Assembly: GCA_001604135.1 (NCBI GenBank)
Contig: LVAT01000012.1
Coordinates: 1-64,000 of the forward strand
Origin: Clostridiales bacterium Firm_14
GTDB lineage: Bacteria; Bacillota; Clostridia; Saccharofermentanales; Saccharofermentanaceae
Reading direction: 5' to 3'
DNA length: 64,000 bases
Positions 7,193 through 12,984 of the stretch are shown piece after piece. Within the stretch, counting starts at the first letter, position 1; every line of letters starts with the position of its first letter. Both the position numbers and the translations under genes were made by a program. The notes beneath the pieces are model-generated. The model searched no databases. It was not told the DNA's origin and was given only the letters and a program-made list of their open reading frames with translations.

Positions 7193-8264
7193 TTAAAAGA
7201 GAATGTCCTTAAAGCAGACTCTCTGCTTGTTGTTATCGTAATCAAAACAGTGTCTGGAACCGCCTGCGCACCACTTCTCCCACTCGCACTTCTGACAGTC
7301 TTCGCAAAGTGAGGACAGGGGCTTTCTGAATTCCTGGAAACGGTTAAACCATACATCGCTGAACTTATCCTTATAGATGTTGCCCTGTACGAATTCAGGC
7401 CTCTCCTCGATATCAAGGCATGCCGTGATGTCACCGTTGACTCTTATTGCAGCCGTATGTGTGCCTGCGCCGCAGTAGAAGAACCAGTCTCTTACTTCCC
7501 TCTCATATTCCAGTCCGAGGAAATGGGAGCAGCCGTAATTTACCGGGATACCCTGTTCTCTCTTATCACGGATGAACTTGAAGATATATCTCTGGTCATC
7601 AGGTGTAAGGAGCATGTCCGGATAATCCAATGCTCTTCCCATGGGCTCGATACCGATCACTCTCCAAGAATCCAAGTCCATCTTATCGAGGATCTCATAG
7701 AGCTCATCCAATTCGCCGATGTTCTTGTGATTAACGACGGTCGTTACCTGAATATGCCTGAAAGCCTTGCGGTCGATGAGGTTCTGAATGCCCTGCATTG
7801 CCCTGTCATAACCGCCTGCAATGCCTCTCTGCCTGTCATGAGTGTCTCTTAATCCGTCGATGCTGACGGAAACAGTACCCATGCGTGTCCTGGCGAGCAT
7901 ATCCGCAACATCCTTTGTGATAAGCGTTGCATTTGTCGTCATTCCCCAATGGAAACCATTATCTACGGCATAGCCCAAAAGCTCTTCGAAATCAGGATAC
8001 AGTAAAGGCTCTCCGCCCGTGATGCAGAGCTGCACTCTCTTTAAGTCAAAGTGCTCCTTAACATCATCCAGAACGGCTTTGAAAGCTTCCTTATCAGGTC
8101 CGTGGCCTAAGCCGGGCTCACAGGAGCTGCCGCAATGAAAACATTTCGAATTGCAGCTTCTTGTTAATTCAAAAAACAGGTAGATCAGATCAGGCTCTTT
8201 GAAAAGCCTTGCTCTCATTTCGGCTTTCTGGTCAAGATAAGCCTTTTTTATTTCATTTATATCC
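7193..8264 (-). CDS. radical SAM/SPASM enzyme, probable peptide maturase for the adjacent VYGPP protein
   Basis: About 357 residues, read from a GTG start (codon 8266-8264) seven bases after the upstream stop. The radical SAM cluster motif CxxxCxxC is at Cys38, Cys42 and Cys45 (RSCNSKCFHC), and ITGGEPLLYPDF follows near 90. The C-terminal SPASM region has GAGTHTAAIRVNGDITAC, then CEDCQKC, CAGG and a final Cys, enough to bind auxiliary Fe-S clusters. Enzymes of this architecture make C-C, C-S or similar cross-links in ribosomal peptides, or act as sulfatase maturases. No type I sulfatase is nearby, and the gene follows a small repeat protein with the spacing usual for a RiPP precursor. Substrate assignment is inference; the enzyme class is firm. 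Confidence 0.85.
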
Positions 8265-8273
8265 ACTTAAATA

Positions 8274-8636
8274 TCAGTTCTCAAAATCTTCCGGAGGTCC
8301 GTAAACAACAGCTTCAGGTCTGTCTGTCTCGTCAAAATCTTCCGGCGGAGGTCCGTATACATCTGCTTCAGGTCCGTCCAGCGTTTCATCCGGCGGAGGT
8401 CCGTATACGCATACTTCTTCAGATGTCTCACCGGGCTTGGACTCGGGTAAGGTGGCATCTGTCTCGTCGGTTGTCTCTTCTGTCTCATATGAGGTCAGTT
8501 CCGGTGGCGGGGGACCGTAAACATTAGTCTCGGGCGGATTCGGAGGTCCGTATACACATGCTTCCACTGCAAGGCTCAACGCGCCGATGCTGGCAGCGAC
8601 TGCTGCAAAGGTCAATGGTTTTTTCGATTTCTTCAT
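8274..8636 (-). CDS. exported VYGPP-repeat protein, candidate radical-SAM-modified precursor
   Basis: 120 residues with a strong ribosome site (AGGGGG) before the ATG. Residues 1-26 look like a signal peptide: KK-S-KK followed by LTFAAVAASIGALSLAV. Cys27 could be a lipoprotein Cys, but Glu at -2 makes the lipobox poor. The rest is acidic and low in order-promoting residues and carries five VYGPP motifs at 28-32, 39-43, 77-81, 93-97 and 111-115. Two of these are preceded by Cys (27 and 76). There are no other Tyr-Gly pairs. The radical SAM gene begins seven bases after its stop. The repeated Tyr/Gly/Pro core next to a SPASM enzyme suggests modification of Tyr or its neighbour in each repeat. 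I do not recognise a characterised family. Confidence 0.8.
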   Translation of the reverse strand: MKKSKKPLTFAAVAASIGALSLAVEACVYGPPNPPETNVYGPPPPELTSYETEETTDETDATLPESKPGETSEEVCVYGPPPDETLDGPEADVYGPPPEDFDETDRPEAVVYGPPEDFEN

Positions 8637-8659
8637 CAGTTATATCCCCCTGAATGCTA

Positions 8660-11600
8660 TCAGCTGATATCCTGTGTGTCTTCGTCGGAAAGATTCTCTC
8701 CGCCAAGACCCTTGAATCCTGCCATCGGTCTTGATGCCGTAGGAGCAGCCTTTGCGTTAGGATCCATGATCGAAGGTCTCTGTCCTTCTAATGCTGCGCC
8801 CATAGCAGGAGCAGTCATTCTCTTATTTGCTTCATTCTCTTCATCAACTACTGCGGAAGGTCTTACGATACCGCCGTAAGCGGATACGTGGCCGTCCTGC
8901 TCTGCAGAAGAATCACGACCGGACTGAGCTCTCTTAAAGAATGCGGACTTATGAGACTTTGCAGAATCGGCAATGCTCGTATAAGCAGCCTTTGCCTTTT
9001 CTTCCTCAGCCCTCTTAGCCTCGATCTCTTCGAGTCTCTTCTGTTCTTCACGCGCTCTTGCTTCCTTGGCTTCTTCGCTCTCCTTGAAAGCAGAAACGTT
9101 AGCCATGGCAGGAGAAGCCCAAACGGGTGCTCTGCCGGAGCTGTTATATGTCTTTCCTGCAAGGATGCTGCCCAACTGGTTGGAGTTGGAAGATGCCTTT
9201 GCACGCTCGCTCGAAATGGAAGGTCCGGAAATATCGGTTGATGCGGAAGCTCCGACTCCGGAAGAAGAACCGCTCTTGAAAGACATCAGAGGATTGCGCT
9301 TGATCTCGCTGACCTTAGAGCTTTCCTTGCTCTCGGATACTTTCTCCTTCTTGCTGTCGAGCATCTTGTCGTAACCTTCGGCAGAAGCGAGTGCGGAAAT
9401 GCCCGGAGCTACGGTGTTCTCTGAAGTTGCCAATGTATTCTTGAAGAATGCGGAAGTCTTTGCCTGAGCCTTAGCGCGTTCAGCACGTGCTTCTCTTGCG
9501 GCATCAGCTGCCTGCATTGCCTTCTGTGCCTCAGCGAGCTTTGCCTCAGCTTCAGCCTTTGCTGCAGCCGCTGCCTTCGCTGCTTCTTCTGCTGCGGCCT
9601 TAGCACGCTCAGCTGCCAAAGCTTCTTCCTGCTTGGCAAGAGCTGCTGCCTTGGCAGCTTCCTCAGCTTTTCTGGTCTCTTCAGCTAATCTAGCTTCTTC
9701 AATCTTCTTAGCCTCTTCGGCACGTCTTGCTTCCTCAGCTTTCCTTGCCTCCTCAGCCTTTCTGAGCTCTTCTGCTCTTCTGGCCTCTTCAGCTTTTCTC
9801 ATCTGCTCGGCAATTCTGGCTTCCTCAGCTCTTCTTTCTTCCTGAGCCTTCTTGGCAGCTTCGATTCTCTCACGCTCTGCTGCTCTCAAAGCTTCCTGGA
9901 TCTTTCTGGCTTCCTCAGCCTTAGCTTCTGCTTCAGCCTTTGCGATGGCAGCAAGTCTTATGGCCTCTTCAGCCTTCCTCTGCTCTTCTAATCTTGCACG
10001 CTCAGCTGCCTCAGCTGCTTCCTTAGCCTTTCTTGCATCCTCAGCCTTTCTCGCTTCTTCTGCGAGTCTTGCCTCTTCTGCTTTCCTGGCAATCTCTGCT
10101 TTTCTTGCTTCTTCAGCCTGTCTGGCTTCTTCAGCAGCCTTCTTCTCGGCCTCGAGCCTCTTGGCTTCAGCGTTCTTTCTTATCTCTTCGACTCTTGCAG
10201 CCTGAGCGGCTCTTCTCTCCTCAAGAAGCTTAGCAGCCTTCTCACGCTCAGCGATCTGCTCGGGAGTAAGTTCATTCTTGGGACGTCTGATCGGCTCAGC
10301 CTTCTTCTCTTCCTTTACGGCTGCTGCTGCGGCTGCAGTTCCGGCCAATGCGGCAGGAGTTACAGCGGGAGTAACAGCGTTCTTGAAAGGTGAGCCGGAT
10401 GCAGCAGGATCAGCTGAAGGCAATGTTCCGGGAACCTTGGACGGCTGGAAAATATTCTTTCTTGCCGAATTCTGCATCGAGCGGTTAACTCTCGGAAGAC
10501 CTCCGACGATGTTAGTCTGTGATCCTGTCGTACCCTGTGCAGCTGTATCCGCAGCAGCCGCAGCTGTCTCTGCCGCAGGCTTTGCTGCAGTATTAGCAGG
10601 CTTGAACAGGTTGCCGAATACGGGCTGCTTGGCAGTTGTATCAGCAGGCTTGAAAGCGTTCTTTGCCGCATGATCCTGAACAGTCTTCGGAACTGTCTGT
10701 GTGCTTGCAGATCTTGCGGGTTTAAATGCGTTGATCGCAGAATTCTGTGTAGCTGCCGGTGTTGCGGCTGCATCACTTGCGGGCTTGAATGCGCTGTTGA
10801 TCGGCTTCGTAGCAGTTGCACTTGCAGCAGGCTTTGTCTCACCTGCGCTTGCAGCCTTGAAAGTGCTCTTAAAAGCAGACTTTTGAGCTGCTGTGCTTGC
10901 TGCGGGCTTAGCAGCCGGCTGGCTTGCAGGCTTAAATGCGTTGACCGCAGGCTTCTGGGCAGGTGTGCCTGCCTCAGGCTTAGCTGCTGAATCAACTGCA
11001 GGCTTGAATGCGCTGTTGATCGGCTTAGTAGCCGAAGCCTTGGTCTCGAGCCTGTTATCAGTTCTCATCGCATTCTTCATTGCATTATTCTGAGCAACGG
11101 AATTAACATTGGTCTGAATGCCTGAAGCGTTTGTAGGTCTGAACGGAGATGCTGCCTTTGAATCAGCAGTCCTTGCAGCAGCCGTTGTAGCTGCAGCGCC
11201 GCCCAAAGCAGCCTTCGTCTGGCCTGCGGATGCAGGCTTAAATGCATTGCTCTTCATGGCTGTCTGGCCGGCAGTCTTTGTTGCAGGTCTGAAAGCGACC
11301 TGATTCTTGCTGTCTGTCGTAGCCTTAGGAGATTCAACTGAACGGTCAGAAGGAAGCTTCATGGGTCCCTTCTTCTCAACCGGCTTGGGAGCAGTACCGG
11401 GTGCAGGCTTGAAAGGACTGATCTCGCCTGATTCCATAGCCTTGATCTCCTTCATAGCCGTTGCAGCGTTAAATGTTCGGCTGGTACTGGAAGCAGGAGC
11501 TTCCTCCGGCTTAACTTTCTTAACAGGTCCGAGATATCCGAATTTATCAGCGATAAACGGAACGCCCGGAATAAATGCGATCGCAAGATCCACACCTTCC

Positions 11601-12925
11601 AGTTCCTTCTTATCCTTAAGATACTTGTATCTTGCAAATCCGGCACCTGCAAGCAGTACAAGAAGGATCCACCAGAACCATGTGGGATTCACAGGACCTT
11701 TCTTCTTACCGGTTGCAGCAAGAGCAGCGATTACAGGTGTAGGTGTCGGAGTAGGAGTAGGCGTGCCGTCTCCTGTCTCAGTATTACCGCCTCCACCATT
11801 GGTTGTTGTAGTAACGGCGGCTTCTGTTGTATCGGATGCAGACGTATCTACGATTCCGCCAACAATACCACCTGCAGCACCATCGACAATGTTCGGATCC
11901 AATGTGCTTGTAGCTGTAGGATCAAGTATCGTCTCTGTCGGCTTAGGTGCCTCAGTCTCAACCGGTGCACTTGTATTGGTAGGCTTTGGTGCCTTTGTAG
12001 GTTTGGGTGCCTTCGTATTTGTAGGCTTAGGTGAATTTGTAGGTTCCGGTACCTCTGTACTTGTAGGAACCGGTGTATTCGTCGCATGCTTAGTAGGAGT
12101 AGGGTTAACCTTCTTTGTAGGTGTAGGTGTCGCCTTCTTCGTAGGAGTAGGGTTTGCCTTCTTTGTAGGTGTAGGTGTTGCCTTCTTTGTAGGTGTAGGT
12201 GTTGCCTTCTTTGTAGGCGTAGGCGTTGCCTTCTTCGTAGGTGTAGGCGTCGCCTTCTTTGTAGGCGTAGGTGTCGCCTTCTTTGTAGGCGTAGGGGTAA
12301 CCTTCTTTGTAGGCGTAGGTGTCGCCTTCTTTGTAGGCGTAGGTGTCGCCTTCTTTGTAGGCGTAGGTGTCGCCTTCTTTGTAGGCGTAGGTGTCGCCTT
12401 CTTTGTAGGCGTAGGCGTTGCCTTCTTTGTAGGTGTAGGCGTTGCCTTCTTTGTAGGTGTAGGCGTAGGCGTGTTTGTATTCGTTGGCTTAGGTGTAGGC
12501 GTTGGTGTATTGGTATTTGAAGGTTCTGTAATCTTTACATTTTTGACCTTTACACTATTAGCATCCAACTGATATCCATCTAAAGTAACACTGTATTCTT
12601 TGTCGTTTTTTGGTGTCAGTGAAATCTGCAATACGCCATCAGATTCTTCATTAACAGTAATTCCGGAAGATTTTGAAGAAACAAAGAATTCATTCTTGCT
12701 TACAGTAAAGGTCATCTTTACTTTAGTTCCACTCTTAAGGCTCCAGAATTTAAAACCAAAAGAACATTGATCCTCTCTGGATGACCAAGTCCAGAAAGAA
12801 TAATTGTCAGCGGCCTGAACATCCTGAACATCAACAAACTGCAACGCGAAAGACATGCCGATAAGCACGCAAAGAAGCATACATATCGACTTAAGCGAGA
12901 AGCGACCCGAATAGCTGCCCGTCAT
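8660..12925 (-). CDS. 1421-residue trans-membrane scaffold-like protein with Thr-Pro linker, FKPA repeats and long coiled coil
   Basis: The chosen ATG is at 12925; an in-frame TTG directly before it (12928) is an alternative behind the same GGAGG site. Order: signal peptide (about 1-40, ending VQAAD); an extracellular domain of about 95 residues with aromatic-rich strands; a linker of about fifteen KKATPTPT units plus looser Pro/Thr sequence (about 135-330); one membrane helix near 412-430 (WFWWILLVLLAGAGFA) followed by RYKYLKDKK, placing the rest inside the cell. The inside part has about a dozen F-[KR]-P-[AT] motifs (about 490-830), then an Ala/Glu/Lys/Arg coiled coil of about 300 residues, then a Ser/Lys-rich tail. 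No enzyme motif is visible. It may link an outer fibre-binding domain to an internal assembly. Its own promoter lies upstream. Confidence 0.8.
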   Translation of the reverse strand: MTGSYSGRFSLKSICMLLCVLIGMSFALQFVDVQDVQAADNYSFWTWSSREDQCSFGFKFWSLKSGTKVKMTFTVSKNEFFVSSKSSGITVNEESDGVLQISLTPKNDKEYSVTLDGYQLDANSVKVKNVKITEPSNTNTPTPTPKPTNTNTPTPTPTKKATPTPTKKATPTPTKKATPTPTKKATPTPTKKATPTPTKKATPTPTKKVTPTPTKKATPTPTKKATPTPTKKATPTPTKKATPTPTKKATPTPTKKANPTPTKKATPTPTKKVNPTPTKHATNTPVPTSTEVPEPTNSPKPTNTKAPKPTKAPKPTNTSAPVETEAPKPTETILDPTATSTLDPNIVDGAAGGIVGGIVDTSASDTTEAAVTTTTNGGGGNTETGDGTPTPTPTPTPVIAALAATGKKKGPVNPTWFWWILLVLLAGAGFARYKYLKDKKELEGVDLAIAFIPGVPFIADKFGYLGPVKKVKPEEAPASSTSRTFNAATAMKEIKAMESGEISPFKPAPGTAPKPVEKKGPMKLPSDRSVESPKATTDSKNQVAFRPATKTAGQTAMKSNAFKPASAGQTKAALGGAAATTAAARTADSKAASPFRPTNASGIQTNVNSVAQNNAMKNAMRTDNRLETKASATKPINSAFKPAVDSAAKPEAGTPAQKPAVNAFKPASQPAAKPAASTAAQKSAFKSTFKAASAGETKPAASATATKPINSAFKPASDAAATPAATQNSAINAFKPARSASTQTVPKTVQDHAAKNAFKPADTTAKQPVFGNLFKPANTAAKPAAETAAAAADTAAQGTTGSQTNIVGGLPRVNRSMQNSARKNIFQPSKVPGTLPSADPAASGSPFKNAVTPAVTPAALAGTAAAAAAVKEEKKAEPIRRPKNELTPEQIAEREKAAKLLEERRAAQAARVEEIRKNAEAKRLEAEKKAAEEARQAEEARKAEIARKAEEARLAEEARKAEDARKAKEAAEAAERARLEEQRKAEEAIRLAAIAKAEAEAKAEEARKIQEALRAAERERIEAAKKAQEERRAEEARIAEQMRKAEEARRAEELRKAEEARKAEEARRAEEAKKIEEARLAEETRKAEEAAKAAALAKQEEALAAERAKAAAEEAAKAAAAAKAEAEAKLAEAQKAMQAADAAREARAERAKAQAKTSAFFKNTLATSENTVAPGISALASAEGYDKMLDSKKEKVSESKESSKVSEIKRNPLMSFKSGSSSGVGASASTDISGPSISSERAKASSNSNQLGSILAGKTYNSSGRAPVWASPAMANVSAFKESEEAKEARAREEQKRLEEIEAKRAEEEKAKAAYTSIADSAKSHKSAFFKRAQSGRDSSAEQDGHVSAYGGIVRPSAVVDEENEANKRMTAPAMGAALEGQRPSIMDPNAKAAPTASRPMAGFKGLGGENLSDEDTQDIS
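12092..12466 (-). repeat. 24-bp tandem repeat encoding KKATPTPT units
   Basis: About fifteen near-identical 24-bp units (plus-strand form begins GCCTTCTTTGTAGGYGTAGG) lie inside the 1421-residue protein. Two groups of units differ at third positions (GGTGTAGG versus GGCGTAGG), and a few code Val or Asn instead of Ala or Thr. The run is prone to copy-number change by slippage or recombination and would alter only linker length. Confidence 0.9.
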
Positions 12926-12984
12926 CAATATTTACCTCCAAAAAGCACACACCTCTCCTAATATAAATATTAGAAGATACTAAA

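Follow-up and report, generated by a model that had tools for sequence, protein, structure and literature searches.

The window analysed here is a stretch of 64,000 nucleotides (positions 1 to 64,000 of contig LVAT01000012.1 from Clostridiales bacterium Firm_14, a rumen-type bacterium), and the features of the locus of interest are listed in Table 1. Two neighbouring genes on the minus strand encode a short putative lipoprotein with VYGPP repeats and a radical SAM/SPASM enzyme. A first-pass annotation, made from the DNA letters, had put five VYGPP motifs at residues 28, 39, 77, 93 and 111 and the start of the enzyme gene 7 bases past the lipoprotein ORF, and all of these positions are exact. 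The lipoprotein is an acidic chain with its first VYGPP immediately after Cys27; it has no NCBIfam match at E ≤ 1 and no Pfam match at E ≤ 0.1. The signal peptide reported in that annotation is present by look, but it is probably of the lipoprotein type (judging from LAVEAC, with Cys27 as the likely lipid Cys). Directly upstream on the minus strand (8660-12928), we note a 1422-aa secreted-looking ORF with a TTG start, in which a 16-copy 24-bp tandem array (12081-12463) encodes TPTPTKKA-type repeats and a long part is rich in Ala, Lys and Glu; it has no Pfam match at E ≤ 0.1.

Table 1. Features of the lipoprotein/enzyme locus (positions in the window)
Feature	Position	Strand	Basis
VYGPP-repeat putative lipoprotein, 120 aa, likely substrate	8274..8636	-	ORF reading
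Shine-Dalgarno-like AGGGGG ahead of precursor ATG	8646..8651	-	read by eye
Putative signal peptide, residues 1-26 (MKKSKKPLTF...SLAVEA)	8559..8636	-	by eye; kept in aligned relatives
Cys27, likely lipidated, first residue of mature protein	8556..8558	-	lipobox-like LAVEAC
VYGPP site 1, residues 28-32	8541..8555	-	protein motif and DNA pattern
VYGPP site 2, residues 39-43	8508..8522	-	protein motif and DNA pattern
VYGPP site 3, residues 77-81	8394..8408	-	protein motif and DNA pattern
VYGPP site 4, residues 93-97	8346..8360	-	protein motif and DNA pattern
VYGPP site 5, residues 111-115	8292..8306	-	protein motif and DNA pattern
Radical SAM/SPASM enzyme, 357 aa, GTG start	7193..8266	-	Pfam Radical_SAM and SPASM
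CNSKCFHC cluster motif, residues 38-45, then G46-S47	8132..8155	-	Cys and G46-S47 invariant in alignments A1/A2
SPASM part, invariant Cys 265, 283, 324, 327, 333, 351	7214..7474	-	alignments

The repeats go far beyond what chance would give: when the window protein was shuffled 100,000 times, one VYGPP appeared in 114 shuffles and two or more in none. Across the 3,120,228-base genome, the VYGPP-encoding DNA pattern GTNTAYGGNCCNCC has five matches, all inside the lipoprotein gene, and the control, which is the same pattern reversed, has four matches in the same 3.12-Mb genome. Codons were compared at four fixed motif columns shared by 27 precursors, namely that of the window and those of its closest relatives. 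In these motif columns, non-synonymous differences make up 2.4% of the codon comparisons (166/6,890) and silent ones 31.8%, as compared to 54.7% (9,874/18,045) and 18.3% in the linkers and 17.3% and 41.1% in the signal region. Since non-synonymous changes are few and silent changes many in the motif columns, the VYGPP motif is selected as protein: spacers drift and copy number changes, and the motif persists.

The distribution of the pair was examined in a family sample of 115 genomes, in which the enzyme was called at E ≤ 1e-40 and the VYGPP protein at E ≤ 0.001. The enzyme is found in 62 out of the 115 genomes and a detectable VYGPP protein in 50, all among those 62 (Fisher p 2.6e-21, with related genomes treated as independent). 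VYGPP proteins occurring without the enzyme, which the first-pass annotation had named as the observation that would break the link, were detected in none of the 53 enzyme-free family genomes. Reading the DNA on either side of the enzyme in the window's own family showed a same-strand YGxP protein next to it at 62 of 63 loci. At the exceptional locus (L097, in genome G102) the enzyme is about 40% identical, has no YGxP partner and lacks the end of its SPASM part in frame, which marks it as a decayed, frameshifted or misassembled copy.

Among named genomes, a scan gave at least 535 confirmed relatives, of which the best 80 were analysed. They include two relatives named Ruminococcaceae bacterium, YAD3003 (L125) and AB4001 (L114), both of which have the two genes in their genomes. 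Fifty-one of these best 80 (L134-L184) are named loci with at most 63% identity to the window enzyme, and in 49 of the 51 the partner lies within 300 bases upstream. The two remaining loci of these 51 (L147 and L171) have no YGxP partner near the enzyme. A query for VYGPP proteins found none elsewhere in these two genomes; it likewise failed to detect the partner in 3 of 11 other genomes that have one. A YGxP protein adjoins the enzyme at all five class-sample loci (these and the 51 named loci may overlap in species and are counted separately). The earlier proposal that repeat protein and SPASM enzyme form a genuine pair of the substrate/enzyme type is borne out by the family and best-80 counts. 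Out of the best 80 of the at least 535 loci, 79 belong to Clostridia, Erysipelotrichia and Coriobacteriia and one has no taxonomic assignment; many of the 80 are rumen or gut assemblies, judged by their titles.

Besides the pair, no further gene family (genes of at least 80 aa) was found in more than 11 of 57 neighbourhoods, by a coarse clustering that recovered the enzyme itself in 52/57 and the precursor family in 30/57, with flanks of unequal length. With no other recurrent neighbour, the system looks like a two-gene cassette that has no dedicated protease, transporter or RRE gene. Gene order is inverted in two loci (L192 and L199), and the pair is still kept. The enzyme profile matches 12/341 genomes of the class sample, 2/398 of a phylum sample and 6/119 of a coriobacterial family sample (counts that include the window genome or centre genome), and such sparse occurrence indicates a patchy distribution. 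With the long VYGPP query, matches were found in 5/341 class genomes, every one enzyme-bearing; this query is insensitive, since it missed 7 of the 12 enzyme-bearing class genomes. Viral contigs contain seven relatives of the enzyme, one of them close (L185, 50% identity), and phage records contain two enzymes of about 30% identity. In the close case, from a viral-catalogue contig (L185, 3997-6074), a TIGR04133-like enzyme adjoins a protein with zinc-ribbon-like Cys pairs, containing YCLYGSPSTRKYKC and a hydrophobic C-terminal segment in place of a signal peptide. Similar two-gene enzyme/YGxP pairs recur among gut bacteria of several phyla.

To describe the site itself, we collected 118 precursors from 111 loci, drawn partly from the best 80 of the at least 535 named-genome relatives (the set includes the spurious ORF L083_1, the contig-edge fragment L079, the partial frames L090_1 and L145, and L094 with masked bases). 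Among 454 Tyr-Gly sites in these 118 precursors, the residue before Tyr is Val in 422, position +2 is Pro in 439 and position +3 is Pro in 427 (422, 439 and 426 of 452 once the one spurious row is removed); position +4 is often Glu, Pro or Ser, and +5 often Asp or Glu. Each precursor has one to seven YGxP copies. The Cys directly ahead of VYGPP, which the first-pass annotation had pointed out, is seen two positions ahead of Tyr at 87/427 YGxP sites; it recurs but is no general feature. We considered thioether (sactipeptide or ranthipeptide) chemistry and find it unlikely because the repeat has no conserved Cys.

Of the 118 precursors, 110 have a loose lipobox-like pattern. Twin-arginine-like signals, e.g. 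MKKLTRRSFTAAGIL, start 13/14 Coriobacteriia precursors, 2/33 clostridial and 0/5 erysipelotrichial ones (all from named loci among the best 80 of at least 535), and 0/66 precursors in the window's own family. The Tat system exports finished proteins, so the Tat-like signals of the Coriobacteriia precursors fit an editing step in the cytoplasm ahead of export. Several precursors are unusual. One (L140) is far longer (a 635-codon frame), with a distinct N-terminal region ahead of its seven YGxP sites and with no lipobox-like pattern found. At another locus (L148), an ORF of 38 aa that contains QCVYGPPPD and has no signal peptide overlaps the start of the enzyme, next to a normal-looking lipoprotein precursor. 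Near the L174 cassette, about 4.5 kb from the enzyme, there is a signal-less peptide of about 47 aa (L235; MKNLIYKSPEMDIMVFEAEDNYDPSTNMNVEVYGPPEWFGITEDGQN), which is perhaps a second, cytoplasmic kind of substrate.

According to NCBIfam, the top match of the window enzyme is TIGR04133 (rSAM_w_lipo), with 269.5 bits, below the cut-off of 425. It is followed by MftC (142 bits), AhbD (130.8), NirJ1 (117.3), TIGR04347 (114.6) and TIGR04053 (114.5), and in seventh place by TIGR04103 (107 bits vs a cut-off of 725), the family of nif11-class maturase 3, to which PlpX belongs. Identity to the single TIGR04103 enzyme that was compared is 26.9%. The VYGPP and TIGR04133 enzymes form one clade, with support of 99/98 in a tree of 37 rows and 99/99 in a tree of 46 rows, to which anSME, viral enzymes and two more of the window genome's radical SAM frames were added. 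The nearest group to this clade is the PlpX/GDL type (support of the union 92/96 in the 37-row tree and 98/98 in the 46-row tree), in trees that contain few characterised maturases and some long branches, lack PlpX itself and have groups named with the motif in mind. AU tests reject a joint clade with MftC (p 0.0174), TIGR04053 (p 0.00075) and NirJ/TIGR04347 (p 0.00086), and are borderline for anSME (p 0.0555). The two groups also share residues: G46 and S47 are found in 29/29 rows of the VYGPP/TIGR04133 and PlpX-type groups (0 and 2 of the 17 other rows), W201 in 29/29 (2/17), E255 in 28/29 (1/17) and R259 in 28/29 (2/17). On these trees, the TIGR04133 and VYGPP enzymes are the sister group of the PlpX-type spliceases. 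Grouping with sulfatase maturases, the other observation that the first-pass annotation had named as breaking the link, is not what we found, as TIGR03942 scores 67 bits vs a cut-off of 349.45 and the anSME rows lie outside the clade, although the AU test of a joint clade is only borderline; the window genome has no TIGR03942 match at E ≤ 1e-40.

An AlphaFold2 model of the enzyme (from 32 aligned sequences) has a pLDDT of 93.0 and a pTM of 0.90. The solved folds closest to it are SPASM enzymes that modify peptides and proteins, namely SkfB, anSMEcpe, SuiB, 5why/5wgg (an enzyme from a sactipeptide study) and ChlB; no splicease structure is among the matches listed, and this comparison did not separate chemistries. 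The alignment of the model starts at residue 19-20 with SuiB and at residue 1-2 with 5why/5wgg. Ahead of the radical SAM domain, the model has a single helix (residues 3-23). An RRE domain is larger than a single short helix, and the N-terminal helix, as modelled, is too short to be one.

The first-pass annotation held that nothing of this form had been characterised. This needs correction, as NCBIfam contains a radical SAM/lipoprotein pair, TIGR04133/TIGR04134 (reportedly going back to work such as that of Haft and Basu 2011), and the enzyme has TIGR04133 as its top match, so that the type of pair is already known by name. A search of plasmids recovered TIGR04133 systems from Phocaeicola, Parabacteroides and Treponema, and a YGxP protein adjoins the enzyme in all three loci read. 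Their lipoproteins match TIGR04134 with 138.8, 207.1 and 43.7 bits and contain CEYGTP, CEYGSP and SCYGMP at the likely lipid Cys or within about a dozen residues of it. A clostridial locus (L196) bridges the two forms: its lipoprotein (GCGMYGPPPRSYYTMNG, including GCGMYGPPP) matches TIGR04134 at 52.3 bits, above the cut-off of 39.8, and its enzyme scores 385.9 bits against TIGR04133. The site of another relative (L192) is LYGVP. From the sites of the TIGR04134 proteins, L196 and L192, X-Y-G-x-P is the common element and VYGPP arrays are its multiplied form. In a phylum sample of 299 genomes, the TIGR04134 profile has weak matches in 6, none above the cut-off.

For PlpXY, PMC10533398 describes the excision of tyramine (C8H9NO) at X-Tyr-Gly, with MYG and LYG as natural sites. 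According to its authors the leader is dispensable and a tag ten residues long can serve; the tags have the form PIRP(L/G)YGLPI. An affibody carrying such a GYG tag was spliced. Of 16 tag placements in FtsZ, 2 were accepted, each a GYG tag with additional flanking sequence, and neither LYG tag worked (PMC10533398), so context matters to PlpXY. In the portion of PMC10373908 drawn on, multiple sites per precursor can be spliced and the resulting beta-residues give protease inhibition. According to PMC11002830, the leaders of PlpX substrates are of the Nif11 or nitrile-hydratase type, and the system includes an RRE partner. Scott et al. 2022 (Chem) list 27 other characterised and 939 predicted splicease systems, as reported in the excerpt of PMC10533398, and these may already include relatives of the VYGPP enzyme.

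We read several precursors of the PlpX group ourselves. A Nostoc precursor beside a TIGR04103 enzyme ends in GGRGSIALYGLPPELF (ALYGLPPELF), which is strikingly similar to VYGPPEDF. Five GDL-type small proteins are annotated and four were read: PYG stands close to the N terminus in two of these, a third carries AYG at another position and the fourth lacks YG. Two plasmids contain further PlpX-group enzymes: in Agathobacter rectalis (L200, 2695-5423) a distant one comes after a 71-codon frame ending in VMYGTGVRM and is followed by an MFS transporter, and in Tropicibacter oceani (L204, 2674-6365) one adjoins a protein with a trypsin-like peptidase domain and an M23 peptidase.

The pairing, the selection on the motif and the kinship of the enzyme are shown by the results above. 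Some modification very probably occurs at the VYGPP site, and we infer its type and purpose. It is somewhat more likely than not, in our judgement, that the two genes form a cassette in which a splicease-like, RRE-free enzyme edits each VYG. The lipoprotein would be made in the cytoplasm, where the enzyme would itself recognise each short VYGPP tag, needing no RRE domain, and act on the Tyr of each X-Tyr-Gly before export, removing most of the Tyr. Such splicing would yield up to five alpha-keto-beta-amino residues per protein. The first-pass annotation had expected a loss of 2 Da per repeat; going by the splicease relatives, a better prediction is that each site loses C8H9NO, about 135.07 Da. 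The edited acidic chain would then be exported (by a Sec-type signal in the window's group and a Tat-like one in Coriobacteriia) and anchored by its lipid, so that as many as five electrophilic ketoamides would be displayed at the surface of the cell, where they could plausibly trap proteases that prefer Val before the cut. More tentatively, we suggest that the whole TIGR04133 branch may carry out RRE-free tyramine excision at YGxP, with the VYGPP arrays as membrane-anchored multi-warhead protease traps of up to seven ketoamides.

A different reaction directed at Tyr, either closure of a three-residue ring from the Tyr side chain to residue i+2 or an MftC-like oxidation of Val-Tyr, is in our estimate rather unlikely. 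In its favour, Tyr and Gly are conserved, with Val ahead of Tyr at 422/454 sites, MftC is the second-best NCBIfam match (142 bits) and acts on adjacent Val and Tyr (the part of PMC8326336 used here), and SPASM enzymes that form rings link residues i and i+2 (the part of PMC11002830 used here). Against this reaction, TIGR04134 proteins and bridging or distant relatives have Glu, Cys, Met, Leu or Gly ahead of Tyr, so that Val is inessential to the wider family; the joint clade with MftC is rejected (p 0.017), PlpX-type enzymes being the sister group; and among the best 25 NCBIfam matches the cross-link families that we recognise, other than MftC, score below TIGR04103 (for example StsB 98.6, WgkB 96.1, PapB 83.7 and DynA 81.2 bits). 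We regard it as improbable that proline is the target (by hydroxylation, epimerisation or oxidation) with YG as the recognition element: Pro at +3 is near-invariant (427/454) and also found in the three TIGR04134 sites read, but relatives have Met, Ser, Thr, Val or Ala in place of the +2 Pro, and those of known chemistry act at XYG, as far as the excerpted sources describe them. That there is no modification at all, the genes being merely co-transcribed and the repeats binding something themselves, is highly improbable, for although the pair stands among unrelated one-strand genes in the window's genus, neighbours vary by lineage while the pair stays (no other family in more than 11/57 loci) even where the order is flipped (L192, L199), and absence of the enzyme coincides with absence of detectable VYGPP proteins.

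With tyramine excision as the preferred reading, an enzyme/lipoprotein pair of unknown chemistry becomes a concrete, testable reaction, and gut and rumen bacteria may rewrite the backbones of surface proteins at many sites together. The TIGR04133 branch concerned spans Bacteroidota, Treponema, Clostridia and Coriobacteriia. If this reading is true, these bacteria would have a surface lipoprotein with a backbone that the genome does not encode as such, the product could be a new kind of surface-anchored protease inhibitor, and the VYGPP tag with an RRE-free enzyme could offer an easy way of introducing ketoamides into proteins. In the open PMC literature we found no paper with the VYGPP motif, none with the names TIGR04133 or TIGR04134 and no description of the chemistry of that pair, Scott et al. 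2022 being outside this scope. Within that scope, we would call new the repeated form of the site, how far it has spread and its connection to the spliceases.

Three known systems resemble the pair. The mycofactocin precursor has its Val-Tyr at the C terminus, unlike the window protein, in which VYG is internal and repeated. Its maturase MftC (TIGR03962) is likewise a SPASM enzyme acting on adjacent Val and Tyr, as described in the excerpted source; however, the window enzyme falls under the MftC cut-off (142 vs 265 bits) and the joint clade is rejected. The TIGR04133/TIGR04134 pair has a homologous SPASM enzyme and a neighbouring lipoprotein in common with the window. The window lipoprotein differs in that it does not match TIGR04134 (cut-off 39.8 bits); TIGR04134 proteins have a longer C-terminal part (Ig-like by our reading) that is missing in VYGPP precursors, and the latter contain YGxP repeated in one to seven copies. 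The PlpX-type spliceases share the X-Tyr-Gly site, of which the window protein has five as VYG. Their natural sites have Met or Leu as X, whereas X is nearly always Val in VYGPP precursors; PlpX works with the RRE protein PlpY, whereas the VYGPP pair has no third conserved gene in 57 loci among genes of at least 80 aa, a size below which an RRE protein could fall; and PlpX substrates bear leaders, whereas the VYGPP substrate is a putative exported lipoprotein.
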